A stretch of DNA of 21,388 nucleotides from a virus: positions 1 to 21,388 of the IMG/VR virus record IMGVR_UViG_3300012013_000224. One strand, 5' to 3'. Each line of letters opens with the position of its first letter. Position 1 is the first letter of the stretch. Under the pieces are notes generated by a model, which was not told the origin of the DNA, ran no database searches, and saw nothing but the letters and a program-made list of their open reading frames with translations. Shown here piece after piece: positions 3,465-14,554 of the stretch. A program made the position numbers and the translations under genes.

Positions 3465-3758
3465 TTATCCAGAAATTATTTTTTCGTAGACGTGATAGCA
3501 CTGCAAATGGGCCTGAGCCCACTGTGATCCGTGAGCGTGGGTTTCTTCCCACTCAAGGAACGAGATCGCGTGTGCGAACTCATGCACCAGCGTATCGAGC
3601 TGGACCTGCTCGTTCTTCTTGGCGTTGATGCGAATCAAGAAGTGATCTGATTTGCGACGACAATCTCCGCACAACGAATCAGGCAGACTCAATCTGCGCA
3701 CCGAAACGCAGATTGTTGGATTCGACTTTTTCAGGGCATCTCGCAATGCCTGAAACAT
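3465..3758 (-). CDS. SprT-like zinc metalloprotease (97 aa)
   Basis: The motif LDTLVHEFAHAISF supplies HExxH (H59, E60, H63), and THAHGSQW places a third ligand at H76, the SprT/Spartan pattern in which HG...(W/F) follows the HExxH helix by about 10-15 residues. Two Cys-x2-Cys-like residues (C30, C33) lie upstream; the C-terminal zinc-ribbon of longer SprT proteins is absent, making this a minimal catalytic domain. SprT/Spartan enzymes degrade proteins crosslinked to DNA; a phage role in freeing DNA or cleaving a host protein is inference. ATG at 3758 overlaps the TGA of the preceding gene (TGATG), and a GTG codon directly before it is an alternative start. Confidence 0.85.
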   Translation of the reverse strand: MFQALRDALKKSNPTICVSVRRLSLPDSLCGDCRRKSDHFLIRINAKKNEQVQLDTLVHEFAHAISFLEWEETHAHGSQWAQAHLQCYHVYEKIISG

Positions 3759-4624
3759 CACTTAGCACGCCTCGTCTCGTAGTAAAGGACTCTCCTTGCC
3801 CCGTCCCACTTGAAACTTAGCCAGTGCGATCCTAGGGCCTTAGGGCCGAGCATTTTTTCAACTTCCCAACCGCCATGGCCGTCACCCCATGCGTCTTTGT
3901 AGCCGGGTGGGCGGATGTGCAGTTGCTCATCGTGATAAACCACGCCTTTGGAGCTGATACGTTGCCGAGGAATGGTTAGGGACCATTCGTCATGCGTGTG
4001 TCCAGTCACAACAATGTCAGCGTCTGGCGTGAATACCGCAATCCGGTTGGTTTGAATTGTGCCTCTAGTCACCGGCCCACCACCACCAGTCCCATGGTAG
4101 TGATACAAGATTATGCTTTTCTGGATTGTCTTAGCTAGGTTAAAACGAAAGATCACCCAGCCACCGTAGCCACTCGCCTCTACCTTGGATCCGTATTGTC
4201 TCATCCTCGCTGCAAGTCGATCTGTCAGATCAGTTTCGTGCCTGTTGGTTATCGCGGTCTCATGGTTGCCTTTGCCTAGGACCGCAAACTGATCCTTGTA
4301 GGGTTCGTAAAACTGTGCAGCGGTTTCGACGAGAAGATCGAAGTAGTTGTTGCCGCGATGCTCTGGCCGAAGCGAGTTTTTATCGGCTCGTTTGTCCCAT
4401 TTGCCCTGCATTGCGCAGTGCAAATCGCCATTGTCGATAATGATTGCGTTCGTCTCTTTGGCTTGATCGAGGTGCTTCTTTTCTAGCCTCTGGTCGCATT
4501 TTGGATTGTCGTGATGCACGTCGGATCGAAGCAAAACATCCTGACTCCATTGGTTGTTCTTCTTCATGTCAACGATTATTTCGATGACATTAGTGTCCAG
4601 CTTTTTGATCTTCCACTGACCCAT
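3758..4624 (-). CDS. Calcineurin-like metallophosphoesterase
   Basis: All five metal-binding blocks of the family are visible in 288 aa: SDVHHD (D35, H37), DNGDLH (D67), GKGNHE (N120, H121), YHYHGTGG (about 175-178) and VVTGHTHDEW (G208 to H211). The enzyme should be a di-metal phosphodiesterase or phosphatase; substrate unknown. Phages carry several such enzymes, some acting on nucleic acid ends or cyclic nucleotides, but neither is indicated here. The ATG at 4624 has AAAGGA with an 8-nt spacer and lies 35 bp inside the end of the HNAVN/glycosyltransferase gene, so expression is linked to it. The C-terminus (about 215-288) carries HIRPPGYKDAWGDGHGGWE, typical of longer phage and bacterial members. 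Confidence 0.88.
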   Translation of the reverse strand: MGQWKIKKLDTNVIEIIVDMKKNNQWSQDVLLRSDVHHDNPKCDQRLEKKHLDQAKETNAIIIDNGDLHCAMQGKWDKRADKNSLRPEHRGNNYFDLLVETAAQFYEPYKDQFAVLGKGNHETAITNRHETDLTDRLAARMRQYGSKVEASGYGGWVIFRFNLAKTIQKSIILYHYHGTGGGGPVTRGTIQTNRIAVFTPDADIVVTGHTHDEWSLTIPRQRISSKGVVYHDEQLHIRPPGYKDAWGDGHGGWEVEKMLGPKALGSHWLSFKWDGARRVLYYETRRAK

Positions 4625-5633
4625 TACAGAAATCCTTTATGATAGATCTTGCGGTCTGAAGCTTTGTTTTGCAAGTCGCTAGGTGGATGATGTGTGCGTC
4701 GTCAATTCCGTCCCAGAAGTTCCTGAAATAAAACTGCCAGTTGAATCGCGAGTCGAGCAGCTCGTAGCCGTACTTGATCGCCTGCTGTTCGACGACGATC
4801 TGCTCGGCACAGTGGCTCGTCAGAATGTTTTCTGGCGGTTCGGTCCAAACAGACGATGCCGATTTTCGCGTGTAGACAACGCCAGAGTTTAGGCAGGTGT
4901 CGCTGTTGTCGTACTCAATTCCAATCGCTGTGCAAACTTGCTTTCGTTCGGATCGCAGCCAATCGAGGCTCTGGAGGTACGGTGCATCGTCATGGATCAT
5001 GAGATCGCAATCTTGGCCGAAAAGCGATGGACAGGACTCCCTGATGATGCAGTCGGCATCGGCAAAAAGCACTTCCTCGTATTGCTCGACAAAATGCCGC
5101 GTGCGGAACTTTTCAAGTCCCCACCAGGATTTCGTAGCGTTCGTGAGTGCGATGTAATCCGCTCGGCAGCGGTCAGCGTAGGCCTTGATCGTTGGTCCGG
5201 TGATCTCAAGAAGATCGAGATATTCGCGACCAGTGGCGACAGTGACGACAGCCTTGGTTTTAGCGGACCAAGGTCTAACGTTTCGCCAGAGTGTGAGTGC
5301 CTCGCCGAGCGTCAGTTCAGCCTTGCCAAGCTTTCGATTAACTGCGTTGTGAATGCGTACCGTCCAATGGAAGAACGCCATTGGACTGGCAAAATCTGGC
5401 GGGTCAATGGCTTTTAGTTGTGAGTATCCTTCGCGACATTTGCACGAAAAATCTGGAATGCTCACCTCCCACCGACGCAACGCTCTTTCCGAGGGATCGG
5501 TGATTTTATGTAGCTCATTCCATGCGTTCTTGATTTCGGTTATTGTGTGCGTGACTGTCCTAGTTCTCGACAAAATATCAATTCTGCCAAATCCTCGTGC
5601 GATATCGTCTAGTGTTTGCTGTCGCCAGTCCAT
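4590..5633 (-). CDS. Fusion protein: Erv/Alr-like HNAVN helical domain plus GT-A glycosyltransferase
   Basis: Residues about 45-117 resemble the Erv1/ALR thiol-oxidase helical bundle: C64-K-C66, then PP (78-79), SPMAFFHWTVRIHNAVNRKL (83-102), GK and a Trp at 116. The cysteines-to-HNxVN distance (about 29 residues) and the W-x4-HNxVN-x2-LGK sequence fit that family, where the His/Asn helix holds FAD. The cysteine pair is CxC, not the usual CxxC, so oxidase activity is uncertain. Residues about 126-330 look like a nucleotide-sugar transferase: a first strand KAVVTVATG, WWGLEKFRTR, the DxD motif FADAD (192-194), LNSGVVY and a late EQIVVEQQ segment, close to GT8-like enzymes. The ATG abuts the TAA of the Cys-rich gene with no clear ribosome site, suggesting coupled translation. 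Both domain calls come from motifs only. Confidence 0.65.
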   Translation of the reverse strand: MDWRQQTLDDIARGFGRIDILSRTRTVTHTITEIKNAWNELHKITDPSERALRRWEVSIPDFSCKCREGYSQLKAIDPPDFASPMAFFHWTVRIHNAVNRKLGKAELTLGEALTLWRNVRPWSAKTKAVVTVATGREYLDLLEITGPTIKAYADRCRADYIALTNATKSWWGLEKFRTRHFVEQYEEVLFADADCIIRESCPSLFGQDCDLMIHDDAPYLQSLDWLRSERKQVCTAIGIEYDNSDTCLNSGVVYTRKSASSVWTEPPENILTSHCAEQIVVEQQAIKYGYELLDSRFNWQFYFRNFWDGIDDAHIIHLATCKTKLQTARSIIKDFCNGSVEDQKAGH

Positions 5634-6866
5634 TTATGTATTCAACGTAAGAGTTACTGTTGGCACGGTAATGCAAATCGATTCGTCGTAGTTCGTAATG
5701 GTTTTGTCGCAAATCAAGCTGTCAACTGTTTGCAGGCACAGTGCATCCAAATCTAGGTCTGGGCATGGAAATTGTGTTGTTGGACCTCCGCCGATTGGAA
5801 CGATATCACACAGAGTCACAACGTCAGGATCGTTGCCGCAGTTTATAGAGCAATCATTTTGCGTGACGATGGCGTTGCAATCACAATTGTCTAAAAGGTT
5901 TGTGTAGTATCCTGTCGATGCAGGAGCATCTGGAGGTTGTATGGTTTGCCCAGTTGCGTTGGCGTTTCCCTGGCACAAAAGAGTAGAATCCGTAACTTCT
6001 CTACAATTAGAAAATGTACGGACAGCGTAATCGAGACTTTCGTAGTCAACGATTTGGTAGCACGTGCTGACATTGTCTGCGAAATTCTGTCCCCAATCCA
6101 AGCAAAACGATGTCGCTGCTGCACACTTCGCAGATTCAACGGTGCATCCATCTGGCCCAGTGTCTGCATTGGTAATTGAAATGCTTCCAGTTGGTTTTGC
6201 GTCAAAAGTCTTGAACCTTTGCAAAACCACTGAGTAGCTTCTACTAACGGCAGGCTCGGTGTCGACAGCTGCCGTGCAAGTGTCAGAACCAGGATTGATG
6301 GTGTCGCTGTACGTAGTGGTCACAGAACAAGAACCGGAACGGTAAAGCCCAGTGCATGTGGTGTTTACCGCAAGCTCTGGAGTTGCGACATCTGAAAGGA
6401 TTATTCCATCAAGAACATCGTAATAGTAAAGCACTGTCACGACCCATTTACAAACAGGATCTGATTCGCCGCACTTAATGCTCTCCTTGGATATTTTGAC
6501 GCCTATTCCTGTCAGGGTGTAGCGTGCGTAATAATAGTACCGAATCGTCTGCGTGACGTCGCATTCGATTTGCTGTGCTGGAACGCAATCGCAGCTTGAT
6601 CCGTTGTAGGACGCTTTTGCATAGTACTTAGTAAGGTCGTAAGAAATAGACCAAACGCCTTTTGCCCAGAGTTTGCATTGATAGGACGGACTTTGGCAAC
6701 CGACGTCAAATGTTCCAACAAGGCAGCAGTTGGATTTAGTCAACGATATTGAGGTGTCGCCTGGCGTGTAGCAAGTTTGCGTTGGCGATGTCAAATTTAC
6801 TGTGGTGTACTCGGACTCTTCAAGTCCGCCGCATGGTGTGCATCCACAACAACACTTGAATGGCAT
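5634..6866 (-). CDS. Cysteine-rich putative structural/tail protein (410 aa, 33 Cys)
   Basis: The protein opens MPFKCCCGCTPCGG and has 33 cysteines spread through its length, many as CxC or CC pairs (NCC, CDC, NCDC), together with abundant Thr, Ser, Asp and Tyr and few Lys. There is no signal peptide and no transmembrane segment. The composition suggests a beta-rich, disulfide- or metal-stabilised extracellular particle protein. Its position after the tape measure and two further tail-region genes is where distal tail and receptor-binding proteins lie. It has a strong ribosome site (GGAGG, 8-nt spacer) immediately after the previous stop. I do not recognise a family; alternative readings are a virion-attached adhesin or a decoration. 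The neighbouring HNAVN-domain protein is a candidate oxidase or modifier for it. Confidence 0.7.
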   Translation of the reverse strand: MPFKCCCGCTPCGGLEESEYTTVNLTSPTQTCYTPGDTSISLTKSNCCLVGTFDVGCQSPSYQCKLWAKGVWSISYDLTKYYAKASYNGSSCDCVPAQQIECDVTQTIRYYYYARYTLTGIGVKISKESIKCGESDPVCKWVVTVLYYYDVLDGIILSDVATPELAVNTTCTGLYRSGSCSVTTTYSDTINPGSDTCTAAVDTEPAVSRSYSVVLQRFKTFDAKPTGSISITNADTGPDGCTVESAKCAAATSFCLDWGQNFADNVSTCYQIVDYESLDYAVRTFSNCREVTDSTLLCQGNANATGQTIQPPDAPASTGYYTNLLDNCDCNAIVTQNDCSINCGNDPDVVTLCDIVPIGGGPTTQFPCPDLDLDALCLQTVDSLICDKTITNYDESICITVPTVTLTLNT

Positions 6867-7232
6867 TTAGCAGACCTCCACGGCGAGCCATTTATCGCCA
6901 ACTCTAAAACACAGCACGTAGGCATTGGATGCGATCGCAGAGCCTGGATTAAACACGGTTAATGAGCTGGTCGTTCCTCCCATATTGGAAAGTGTCATGG
7001 TGGATGTCGCTCCAGCAGAACCTATTTTTTTGAGTGTCACGGTGCCTGTGCCAAGCGTAGTTCCGCTGCGAGCCGTAATGGTTCCACTGGCAACTCCAAG
7101 ACGCGTATCGAATGGTATCGTGTCCCAGGATTGACCGTTGCCGCCTGCGGTGGATTCTTTGCCGATCGTCTTCAGCAGCTCGGCGGAATCGCCTTTGTTG
7201 AACGCATAAAGTGTTTCGCCCTCTTCGGCCAT
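6867..7232 (-). CDS. Putative tail-associated protein (121 aa)
   Basis: ATG at 7232, preceded by AGGAG with a 7-nt spacer; a TTG three bases earlier is less likely. The chain is rich in Gly, Thr and Ser (GVASGTITARSGTTLGTGTV, then ATSTMTLSNMGGTTSS) and ends with hydrophobic strands NAYVLCFRVGDKWLAVEVC. This resembles a small beta-sandwich or fibre-tip domain ending in a packed strand. No family assigned. It lies between two larger proteins of the tail-tip region with no spacing, so it is probably a virion component of the distal tail. Confidence 0.65.
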   Translation of the reverse strand: MAEEGETLYAFNKGDSAELLKTIGKESTAGGNGQSWDTIPFDTRLGVASGTITARSGTTLGTGTVTLKKIGSAGATSTMTLSNMGGTTSSLTVFNPGSAIASNAYVLCFRVGDKWLAVEVC

Positions 7233-7235
7233 CAA

Positions 7236-8093
7236 TTAGCTCCTGATAAAGTCGGCGAACTCAATCTCTTTTTTGATGCGAAACGTAATCTCATACGGTG
7301 CTGTTCCAGCGGCTACTTGGTTTCCGCTGCCGTCCAGGTTTCCGATAATAGGTATTCCGTTCACGTCAACGCATCTCTGACCGGCAAGCGTTACTGGTCC
7401 GACGTCAAGCATGGTCACGTCATGCGTGTCTGGATCGTAGGTGCATTTGTAAGAAATCCTCCACGCTTGAAATCCGCCAAAGTAGCCAAGTTCGGCACCG
7501 GACAACTCAAGCAGCAGAGTTCGAGCCGATCGTCCAGCAAACGTGGTTTTGTTCACCGTATCGTTGCGATCCATTAACGTCTTGAGGTCTTGTGCTGGGT
7601 TCTCGAACTGCACAAATGAAAACTGAGCAAGCGTTTTGGTTTCGGTCAGCGGTGTTTCAAACGGTGTCTCAGCACTGTTGGAAATGGTTTTTGCAGTCGG
7701 TGTCGTTCGGTCCTTGGTAACAACACGCTCTTTGGTCGTGAACGAATCTACCTTGAACACAGGCACCCAGCTCGTTGGATTGTCGCTGGGGTTATTGGGA
7801 TCTTGTTTCTGGTCTTCTTTGTTACTCTCAAACTCGCACACTACGTCCCAGTAAAGCGGATTGACCTCCGATCGCGTGCAGGATTTGCTGGTGCAAACCA
7901 ATTGGTATGGACCGTACAGCAAGCCGACAATCGGTAGTCCTGGAGTTTGGAGAAGCACCTCTTCGCGGGTAACTGACTTTGAGTCGGTAACGACCAAGAA
8001 CGTGACGCTGGATGTAAATACCAGCGTGTTATTTGATCCCTGTTTGACCGACCCAGAACCGCCACGTTTCTCGCCGACAATTTCGCTGGGCAT
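7236..8093 (-). CDS. Putative distal tail protein (285 aa)
   Basis: The gene directly follows the tape measure gene, the usual place of the distal tail (Dit/gpM-like) protein, and has AGGA 6 nt before its ATG. The sequence is mostly beta: VKQGSNNTLVFTSSVTFLVV, EEVLLQTPGLPIVGLLYGPY, YWDVVCEFES, FQAWRISYKCTYDP and a terminal YEITFRIKKEIEFADFIRS. That final strand reads like the end of a phage structural protein. No catalytic motif is seen. Its role as distal tail protein is inferred from synteny; I cannot place it in a named family. Confidence 0.65.
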   Translation of the reverse strand: MPSEIVGEKRGGSGSVKQGSNNTLVFTSSVTFLVVTDSKSVTREEVLLQTPGLPIVGLLYGPYQLVCTSKSCTRSEVNPLYWDVVCEFESNKEDQKQDPNNPSDNPTSWVPVFKVDSFTTKERVVTKDRTTPTAKTISNSAETPFETPLTETKTLAQFSFVQFENPAQDLKTLMDRNDTVNKTTFAGRSARTLLLELSGAELGYFGGFQAWRISYKCTYDPDTHDVTMLDVGPVTLAGQRCVDVNGIPIIGNLDGSGNQVAAGTAPYEITFRIKKEIEFADFIRS

Positions 8094-13793: not shown

Positions 13794-13902
13794 AACATTC
13801 ACCAATGCCTGCCCGTATCAAATAGTCAGCAACACCAGGAGTGACATCAACAACTGATGCCGTCTCCTTGCGGTGCCACATCTTCAAAAGTCGTATCAAC
13901 AT
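13687..13902 (-). CDS. Possible small overlapping phage protein (71 aa)
   Basis: The frame overlaps the glycosyltransferase end by 56 bp and the adaptor start by about 107 bp. Only the roughly 50 bp between those genes is free, and there it encodes a recognisable block, VVDVTPGVADYLIRAGIGEC, which resembles the 'v~~~~A~~LI~~G~A~~v' core of small phage head-region proteins. The rest is basic and low in complexity (RGKKTSRDRNQRYG). The ribosome site is weak. It is a real candidate but could be a chance ORF. Confidence 0.4.
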   Translation of the reverse strand: MLIRLLKMWHRKETASVVDVTPGVADYLIRAGIGECYDENPSRTSNGADSGTVEPVRGKKTSRDRNQRYGA

Positions 13903-14554
13903 CGTGTTCAATCCATTCCTTCGGGTACATATGGACAGGCTCGTAGTTTTCGTTGTAAATCGTCACCATCTCCTCGACATGACCAAGTCGACAATCTGGA
14001 TCGATGAACACGCTGTTACCTGCCTTTTGCCACTGTAACCAAAACCAAACATCGGAGTCGATTTTAGCGTCTCCCCATTGTCCCTTTTCGTCAGGCTGAC
14101 AGAAAAACCATGGCTTCTGGACTTGCTCAAGTTTCCTTGAGTTTATCACCGTTAGCCCGAAGTGCGCCGTGTCCACCTTGACCGGATAGCCAGACCATTT
14201 GCAGGTCGTCGCATCCGCACCAAGGATTGCACCTAACATTGCTTTCTTGCCCCTGCGAATTTGCATTCCTGCTAAAGCATCCATGTCTTCTTGGACAATG
14301 ATGTTTAGCAATCGTTGCAATTGACTTGGCTTAAAGCATGTGTCGCCATCGATGGTGATTAGGTAGTCCGTTTCTGCAACGGAACTTTCCATCATCATCT
14401 GCATGCACTGACCGTAATATACGCCGAGAGAAATCTCGAACGTAATTTTCATGTGCTTCAGCACTGCTTCAATTTGATTTCTACACCAAGTATTTTCATA
14501 CCTAGGTGCCGTCATCAACGCCTTGACCTTAATTTGCTTACTTTCCTTAACCAT
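13847..14554 (-). CDS. GT-A family glycosyltransferase within the head module
   Basis: The 235-aa protein has the layout of family-2-like transferases: KVKALMTAPRYENTW (first strand), NQIEAVLKHM, the nucleotide/metal motif TDYLITIDGDTCF (D69-G-D71), LAGMQIRRGKKAML, and DSDVWFWLQWQKAGNSVFID followed by CRLGH. The last block is the place of the acceptor or metal-binding His. No membrane segment, so it acts in the cytoplasm on protein, DNA or a soluble acceptor. A strong ribosome site (GGAGGA) precedes the ATG. It lies directly between the capsid-side genes and connector genes, suggesting virion protein glycosylation, which is inference. Confidence 0.78.
   Translation of the reverse strand: MVKESKQIKVKALMTAPRYENTWCRNQIEAVLKHMKITFEISLGVYYGQCMQMMMESSVAETDYLITIDGDTCFKPSQLQRLLNIIVQEDMDALAGMQIRRGKKAMLGAILGADATTCKWSGYPVKVDTAHFGLTVINSRKLEQVQKPWFFCQPDEKGQWGDAKIDSDVWFWLQWQKAGNSVFIDPDCRLGHVEEMVTIYNENYEPVHMYPKEWIEHDVDTTFEDVAPQGDGISC

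Follow-up and report, generated by a model that had tools for sequence, protein, structure and literature searches.

Why should a tailed phage encode, side by side at the end of its tail genes, a protein crowded with cysteines and a protein resembling the Erv1/ALR sulfhydryl oxidases? The question is raised by a 21.4-kb virus record (IMG/VR record IMGVR_UViG_3300012013_000224, positions 1 to 21,388; "the window" denotes this whole stretch), which carries a siphophage-like late region on its minus strand. The two genes concerned are the Cys-rich gene and the gene that follows it, which encodes an Erv1-like domain joined to a glycosyltransferase (GT) and is referred to below as the Erv/GT gene. 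We found that the Cys-rich and Erv1-like genes of this and related phages are obligately adjacent, that the Erv/ALR-type sequence and predicted fold include a strictly conserved di-cysteine, that the fusion to a GT is variable, and that the Cys-rich gene is exchanged together with the CxC-bearing half of its neighbour. An earlier note on this DNA had suggested that the two products form a substrate-enzyme pair, and this proposal is strongly supported by the linkage and co-exchange described here.

Linkage of the Cys-rich and Erv1-like genes

A first scan, made from the Erv/GT side, revealed an open reading frame (ORF) rich in cysteine (23-43 Cys) directly upstream in 12 of 12 loci; the bodies of these proteins were often too diverged for BLAST. 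For an unbiased test, contigs were recruited with P0006 (7236..8093, minus strand), a conserved tail-region protein encoded two genes upstream, which served as an independent anchor for the neighbourhood. This yielded 80 loci, and those running more than 330 nucleotides (nt) beyond a complete Cys-rich gene were counted (n=48). An Erv1-like ORF lay directly downstream of the Cys-rich gene in all 48, which represent 21 distinct Cys-rich proteins. A second and very different Cys-rich family (L018 type) was followed by an Erv-like gene in 22/22 cases; the apparent lone exception, L165, was rejected as an artefact of the distance limit, its Erv ORF beginning 100 nt inside the Cys-rich ORF and being fused to a GT of the GT4 type. 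From the Erv side, a Cys-rich ORF was present upstream of each of the 78 Erv-like genes having upstream sequence. The threshold used in this last count (9 Cys and 3%) is loose: of the other ORFs of at least 200 amino acids (aa), 14% pass it and 1.8% have more than 5% Cys; 37 of the 40 distinct Erv neighbours reach 5%, with a median of 8%. The three sets (48, 22 and 78) have some contigs in common and are not independent samples, and the collection scans were built from smaller alignments, two larger ones having no sufficiently conserved stretch. Co-occurrence of the two genes had been set beforehand, in the earlier note, as the test by which its proposal might be refuted; when this was run, no Cys-rich gene without an Erv-like neighbour was found.

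The Erv/GT gene (4590..5633, minus strand) encodes a protein of 347 aa, P0003. It had been described as a thiol-oxidase-like protein with an HNAVN motif, which holds for one part of it, but the protein in fact has two domains: an Erv1-like domain (residues ~34-121; 5271..5534), which has CKC where CxxC would be expected, and a glycosyltransferase domain of the GT-A type (residues ~124-335; 4629..5264). The first matches Pfam Evr1_Alr (PF04777) above the cut-off (E=5.8e-7), as do 27 of 28 relatives, and a profile built from the 28 relatives matches ALR (1oqc; E=7.5e-11) along the full length of the domain, helix 1 included. In the AlphaFold2 (AF2) model of P0003 the mean predicted local distance difference test score (pLDDT) is 87, with values above 90 across most of the Erv domain, and Foldseek aligns the model with the helical bundle of ALR (1oqc_B; E=6.1e-4, probability 1.00, 28% identity). 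VIA-align returned essentially GT rows only and was uninformative for the Erv domain.

The conserved positions are those expected of the family. W38, H95, N96, V98 and W116 are invariant in 36 aligned sequences and N99 is nearly so; the HNAVN signature (residues 95-99; 5337..5351) and the two tryptophans align with the W, HNEVN and WR of ALR. In the Erv/ALR family, the HNxVN and Trp positions line the site of flavin adenine dinucleotide (FAD). The CKC motif (C64, C66; 5436..5444) occupies the position of the active-site CxxC, and both of its cysteines are invariant in 13 full-length relatives. This di-cysteine is near invariant throughout, in the form CxC in most relatives, while the canonical CxxC was found in two lineages only, L088 (GCFTC) and L094/95/100/101 (GCSPC). 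Exactly two cysteines, the motif itself, are present in 57 of 120 sampled Erv-like domains.

The Cys-rich gene (5634..6866, minus strand) encodes a protein of 410 aa with 33 Cys and an N-terminal KCCCGC, for which no Pfam or PHROG family was matched. Its homologues have in common a CCxC-like N-terminal cluster, followed by a body that is mostly 15-31% identical, and most of the cysteines are spread over this beta-rich body rather than clustered. The AF2 model is beta-rich as well (mean pLDDT 70); Foldseek found no known fold for it, and the pore-forming proteins among the matches were rejected as meaningless (TM-score <0.2). Judged by gene order and divergence, the gene occupies the distal end of the block of tail genes and encodes a hypervariable body. 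From this we infer that the tail genes end with this one and that its product is a hypervariable tail-tip or receptor-binding protein rich in disulfides, which we propose as the substrate of the oxidase. Like known proteins of this kind, it is encoded by the final gene of the tail block, past the tape measure, and has a short conserved N-terminus ahead of a hypervariable body; unlike them, it shows no fold or sequence match to a known tail fibre or spike, and its family, with 15-45 Cys, was not found in cultured phages.

Joint exchange and the predicted oxidase

DNA comparison of the window with close relatives revealed an exchanged block (5403..6863, minus strand) that comprises the Cys-rich gene and, from the Erv/GT gene, the first 77 codons, which include the CxC. 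The window and L003 are 85.7% identical at the nucleotide level until 6864, right where the Cys-rich gene begins; no alignment was found between 6863 and 5403, and identity resumes, at 93.3%, from 5402, in codon 78 of the Erv/GT gene. It resumes at the same point in L008, and at 5444, the CKC codons, in L006 and L011. Among 152 pairs of close phages, which are not independent of one another, identity of the Cys-rich protein correlates with that of the CxC half of the Erv domain (Spearman 0.66) and does not track the HN half (0.17); it weakly tracks the C-terminus of the adjacent upstream protein (0.30), the value for P0006 being 0.14. Such an asymmetry is what would be given by an Erv half that bears the specificity for the partner.

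The adjacent upstream protein, P0005 (6867..7235, minus strand), is a small tail-region protein that ends in ..AVEVC and is a possible disulfide partner. A Cys lies within the last three residues of every distinct P0005-type homologue among those listed, compared with 11% of all ORFs of at least 100 aa, and in L124 and L134 it is the only Cys of the protein. The L018-type architecture has a different upstream protein, with 12 Cys in all and Cys near its end. The number of Cys is odd in 19 of the 22 Cys-rich clusters (40% identity) of uniform parity (binomial P ~4e-4, with clusters treated as independent). Odd parity together with the neighbour's C-terminal Cys would fit an intermolecular disulfide between the Cys-rich and P0005-type proteins, which is a natural but unproved reading.

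These observations can be arranged into a mechanism. Tails are assembled in the reducing cytoplasm of bacteria, and the phage would therefore supply an FAD-dependent sulfhydryl oxidase of its own. The oxidase would dock on its cognate Cys-rich protein and oxidise the cysteines, the CxC pair handing the electrons to FAD and O2; it might also staple the Cys-rich protein to the neighbouring Cys-ending tail protein. In window-like phages, the fused GT-A domain would additionally glycosylate the same Cys-rich protein. Its central element, an active sulfhydryl oxidase dedicated to the Cys-rich neighbour, we regard as probable. More tentative, and in our estimation somewhat short of an even chance, is the complete picture, i.e. 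a widespread lineage of tailed phages with cytoplasmic oxidative folding of its own, in which a CxC-type Erv swaps together with a matched, hypervariable, disulfide-rich adhesin and uses the neighbour's C-terminal Cys to staple it to the tail, a sugar being added by a fused GT in some.

The prediction of thiol oxidase activity relies on likeness to viral Erv oxidases, with which the phage protein is expected to share its way of working. What defines Erv enzymes is their fold, together with FAD and the cysteines of the active site; many of those from viruses are compact and have no shuttle pair, and CxC is known in the family as a redox shuttle motif (PMC3509050). Several points weigh against the oxidase. 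The active site that defines Erv enzymes is CxxC, yet most phage versions have CxC; in most of them the domain is also ~14 residues shorter ahead of the motif and the second shuttle pair is lacking. FAD binding by the phage domain is predicted from conserved positions, and the virion location of the Cys-rich protein is deduced from gene order. The co-exchange can partly mirror where recombination finds homology, since its end points depend on homology resuming, and the sum of cysteines in the Cys-rich protein and its neighbour is not even in every phage (33+2 in the window). We do not claim strict Erv/ALR membership, because most members deviate from the canonical CxxC and FAD binding is a prediction.

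The deviating motif and the shortened domain are also what lends some weight to another explanation, in which the Erv1-like domain has lost its oxidase function and the CxC and helical bundle do no more than bind the Cys-rich protein, whether by shape or through a mixed disulfide, to chaperone it or to present it to the fused GT. Fusion to GTs would suit such an adaptor, and baculoviruses do have inactivated Erv-like domains beside active ones (PMC11654684). We consider it unlikely, as most relatives (33/48) lack a fused GT that could receive the protein, the di-cysteine is one of the invariable elements, and CxxC persists in two lineages. Less probable still is that the Cys-rich protein holds zinc or another metal through its CCxC clusters, with the CxC protein loading it or protecting its thiols and no disulfides being formed. 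The dense CCC/CxC clusters at its N-terminus and the reducing state of the cytoplasm would suit metal binding, and zinc-binding Cys-rich proteins are reported to act in the morphogenesis of other viruses (PMC11213338). The partner is nevertheless a domain of the Erv/ALR family and not a metallochaperone, most cysteines are scattered through the beta-rich body, and the odd Cys counts are conserved. The notion that the whole cassette serves maturation, with the phosphoesterase and SprT-like protease encoded downstream acting on the same Cys-rich protein or adhesin, can practically be set aside, for although both are co-translated with the pair in the window and many relatives likewise encode, downstream of Erv, a phosphoesterase and then a small SprT-like protein, each is represented by at least two families that are exchangeable and occur in every combination, both are missing from lineages that retain the Cys-rich/Erv pair (L012, L013, L016, L018, L108, L113-L118), and the best match of the phosphoesterase is a DNA repair exonuclease family.

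The glycosyltransferase domain and other optional neighbours

The nearest solved structure to the second domain of P0003 is the capsid-glycosylating GT of PBCV-1 (2p73; Foldseek E=2.6e-7; VIA Z 17.3, root-mean-square deviation 2.9, 181 residues aligned). The domain has the GT-A fold with a DxD motif, DADC (D192-C195; 5049..5060), which is invariant, D192-A-D194 being present in 13 relatives. The fold and DxD are common to P0003, the PBCV-1 enzyme (2p6w/2p73, which we take to be A64R) and the glycogenin/GT8-like GT-A enzymes. The PBCV-1 enzyme offers the same theme, a virus GT acting on a virion protein; it differs in that identity is only 13-14%, and P0003 carries the Erv1-like fusion.

That the Cys-rich protein might be glycosylated as well as oxidised had been suggested in the earlier note, and this is plausible, but the GT turns out to be missing in most relatives: of the 48 Erv genes in the set anchored on P0006, 15 are fused and the other 33 encode the domain by itself. 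Some stand-alone Erv-like proteins have as few as 102-129 aa. The fusion partners vary, comprising the window-type GT-A, a GT4 in L165 (Pfam Glycos_transf_1, E=3.3e-20) and a further domain in L018/L126-L137 and L094, which matches no Pfam family and reads like another glycosyltransferase. Because the Erv-like domain stands alone in most relatives, and because its fusion partner differs where it is fused, we take the Erv1-like domain to be the obligate partner, with the GT as an accessory. The GT fusion was probably acquired more than once, and fusion to several GT types suggests a shared substrate.

Some of these architectures contain additional features. The L165 protein (4980-6443) has an N-terminal zinc-ribbon-like stretch on its Erv1-like domain, ahead of the GT4 glycosyltransferase. 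In L139, L140 and L142 (5935-7137), a GT without an Erv domain, again directly downstream of a Cys-rich protein, ends in another kind of domain, which contains CGC (NCGCEERAAIMDAWG..GC), matches no Pfam family and is possibly a non-homologous replacement of the Erv domain. The window itself has a second glycosyltransferase-like gene (13847-14554, minus strand) within the head-gene block (Glycos_transf_2 E=4.6e-4, just below the Pfam cut-off; phrog_1574), and, to judge from this gene, its phage may glycosylate more than one virion protein.

On the minus strand, the late region runs in the order HNH, terminase, portal, head protease, capsid, tape measure, P0006, P0005, Cys-rich gene, Erv/GT gene, phosphoesterase and SprT-like gene, followed by the early genes Sak4, RusA and SSB. 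A check of the ORFs showed that the last four late genes (3465-6866) exist as had been described, all on the minus strand and abutting or overlapping: the TAA stop of the Cys-rich gene directly adjoins the ATG of the Erv/GT gene, the ATG of the phosphoesterase lies 35 nt within the Erv/GT gene, and the start of the SprT-like gene overlaps the phosphoesterase stop. Their position between the tail module and the early operon is likewise correct, downstream of the tape measure and two more tail-region genes and ahead of Sak4/RusA/SSB. The tight cassette is real but not peculiar to these four genes, as the genes farther upstream (6867-7235, 7236-8093 and the tape-measure gene) are packed in the same way, and so is the late region as a whole. 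No excess of promoters or terminators was found in the region.

The calcineurin-like phosphoesterase (PF00149; 3758..4624, minus strand; Metallophos E=1.9e-4, phrog_7339 E=1.2e-14) and the SprT-like metalloprotease (PF10263; 3465..3761, minus strand; Pfam E=1.1e-7, HEFAH motif) both match their families above the Pfam cut-off and are here ordinary optional neighbours, outside the core pair. Downstream of Erv they recur in at least two families each and in all four combinations, and they are missing in several lineages. Since many relatives that retain the Cys-rich/Erv pair have them swapped for other families or lack them, the earlier idea that they take part in the same maturation finds no support; their distribution suggests that the two are linked to each other rather than to the tail protein.

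Distribution and relation to known systems

Virus Erv oxidases are conserved elements of large eukaryotic viruses, the nucleocytoviruses and baculoviruses (PMC3509050, PMC11654684). In baculoviruses, whose capsid is cross-linked by disulfides, P33 forms such bonds within the nucleus, a compartment that is otherwise reducing (PMC11654684). By analogy, these phages would do likewise in the bacterial cytoplasm for one tail-tip protein. The phage version shares with the viral oxidases (vaccinia E10R, mimivirus R596, baculovirus P33/Ac92) and with ALR/Erv1p the Erv1/ALR domain, in profile and predicted fold, the HNxVN and Trp positions and the di-cysteine. Like the viral enzymes it is compact and without a shuttle pair; these are virus-encoded and serve structural proteins built in a reducing compartment, as is proposed for the phage version. 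It differs in belonging to tailed phages of bacteria, in having CxC for CxxC in most cases and a shorter stretch before the motif, and in being genetically locked to one Cys-rich neighbour and often fused to a GT.

No match to the Erv/GT, Cys-rich, stand-alone Erv, L094-type or P0006 proteins was found by tblastn in 50,697 cultured-phage records; of the proteins tried, the terminase alone matches cultured phages (32% identity in the best rows). PHROGs returned no Erv family for any of 36 members, and no phage Erv or phage thiol oxidase was found in the literature searched, which covered few subscription journals. A candidate phage paper with the string "Evr1" (PMC5648845) was rejected, the string being a piece of a digital object identifier. 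The proposed strategy, a virus-encoded Erv that forms the disulfide bonds of a virion protein, is known from large eukaryotic viruses and is, as far as we found, undescribed in phages; the setting is new.

If our reading is true, phages have solved the same problem as large eukaryotic viruses, that of making disulfide-bonded virion parts in a reducing cytoplasm, and have done so with an Erv active site in a naturally occurring CxC form. It would also provide small oxidase/substrate pairs suitable for expression in Escherichia coli, and a new class of phage adhesins, armoured with disulfides and changing fast, would be expected.

Searches with PF04777 and with two alignments, made in ~300-390 genomes from the phylum to which the Pirellula seed belongs, recovered only the GT domain of the seed genome, a result that, without a working positive control, does not imply absence. 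In L023 (4692-9390) and L022, which are metagenome-assembled genomes of Pirellula/Planctomycetota, a row of genes reads as a cellular or prophage cousin of the Cys-rich/Erv/GT theme. One product is collagen-like, with SGSSG repeats and CCCPCYYQWNG in its C-terminal part; the others are a small protein with CGC (FNCGCHSTKSRMNEMG), a P0003-related GT of two domains and a methyltransferase-like protein. Contig IMGVR_UViG_3300016265_001020 (44.7 kb; L111, L200) seemingly has two Cys-rich/Erv modules; in one the Erv is fused to a GT, in the other it stands alone. Finally, the tape measure protein is a mosaic when L005 and L006 are compared with the window: its N- and C-terminal parts align, and parts of the middle differ.

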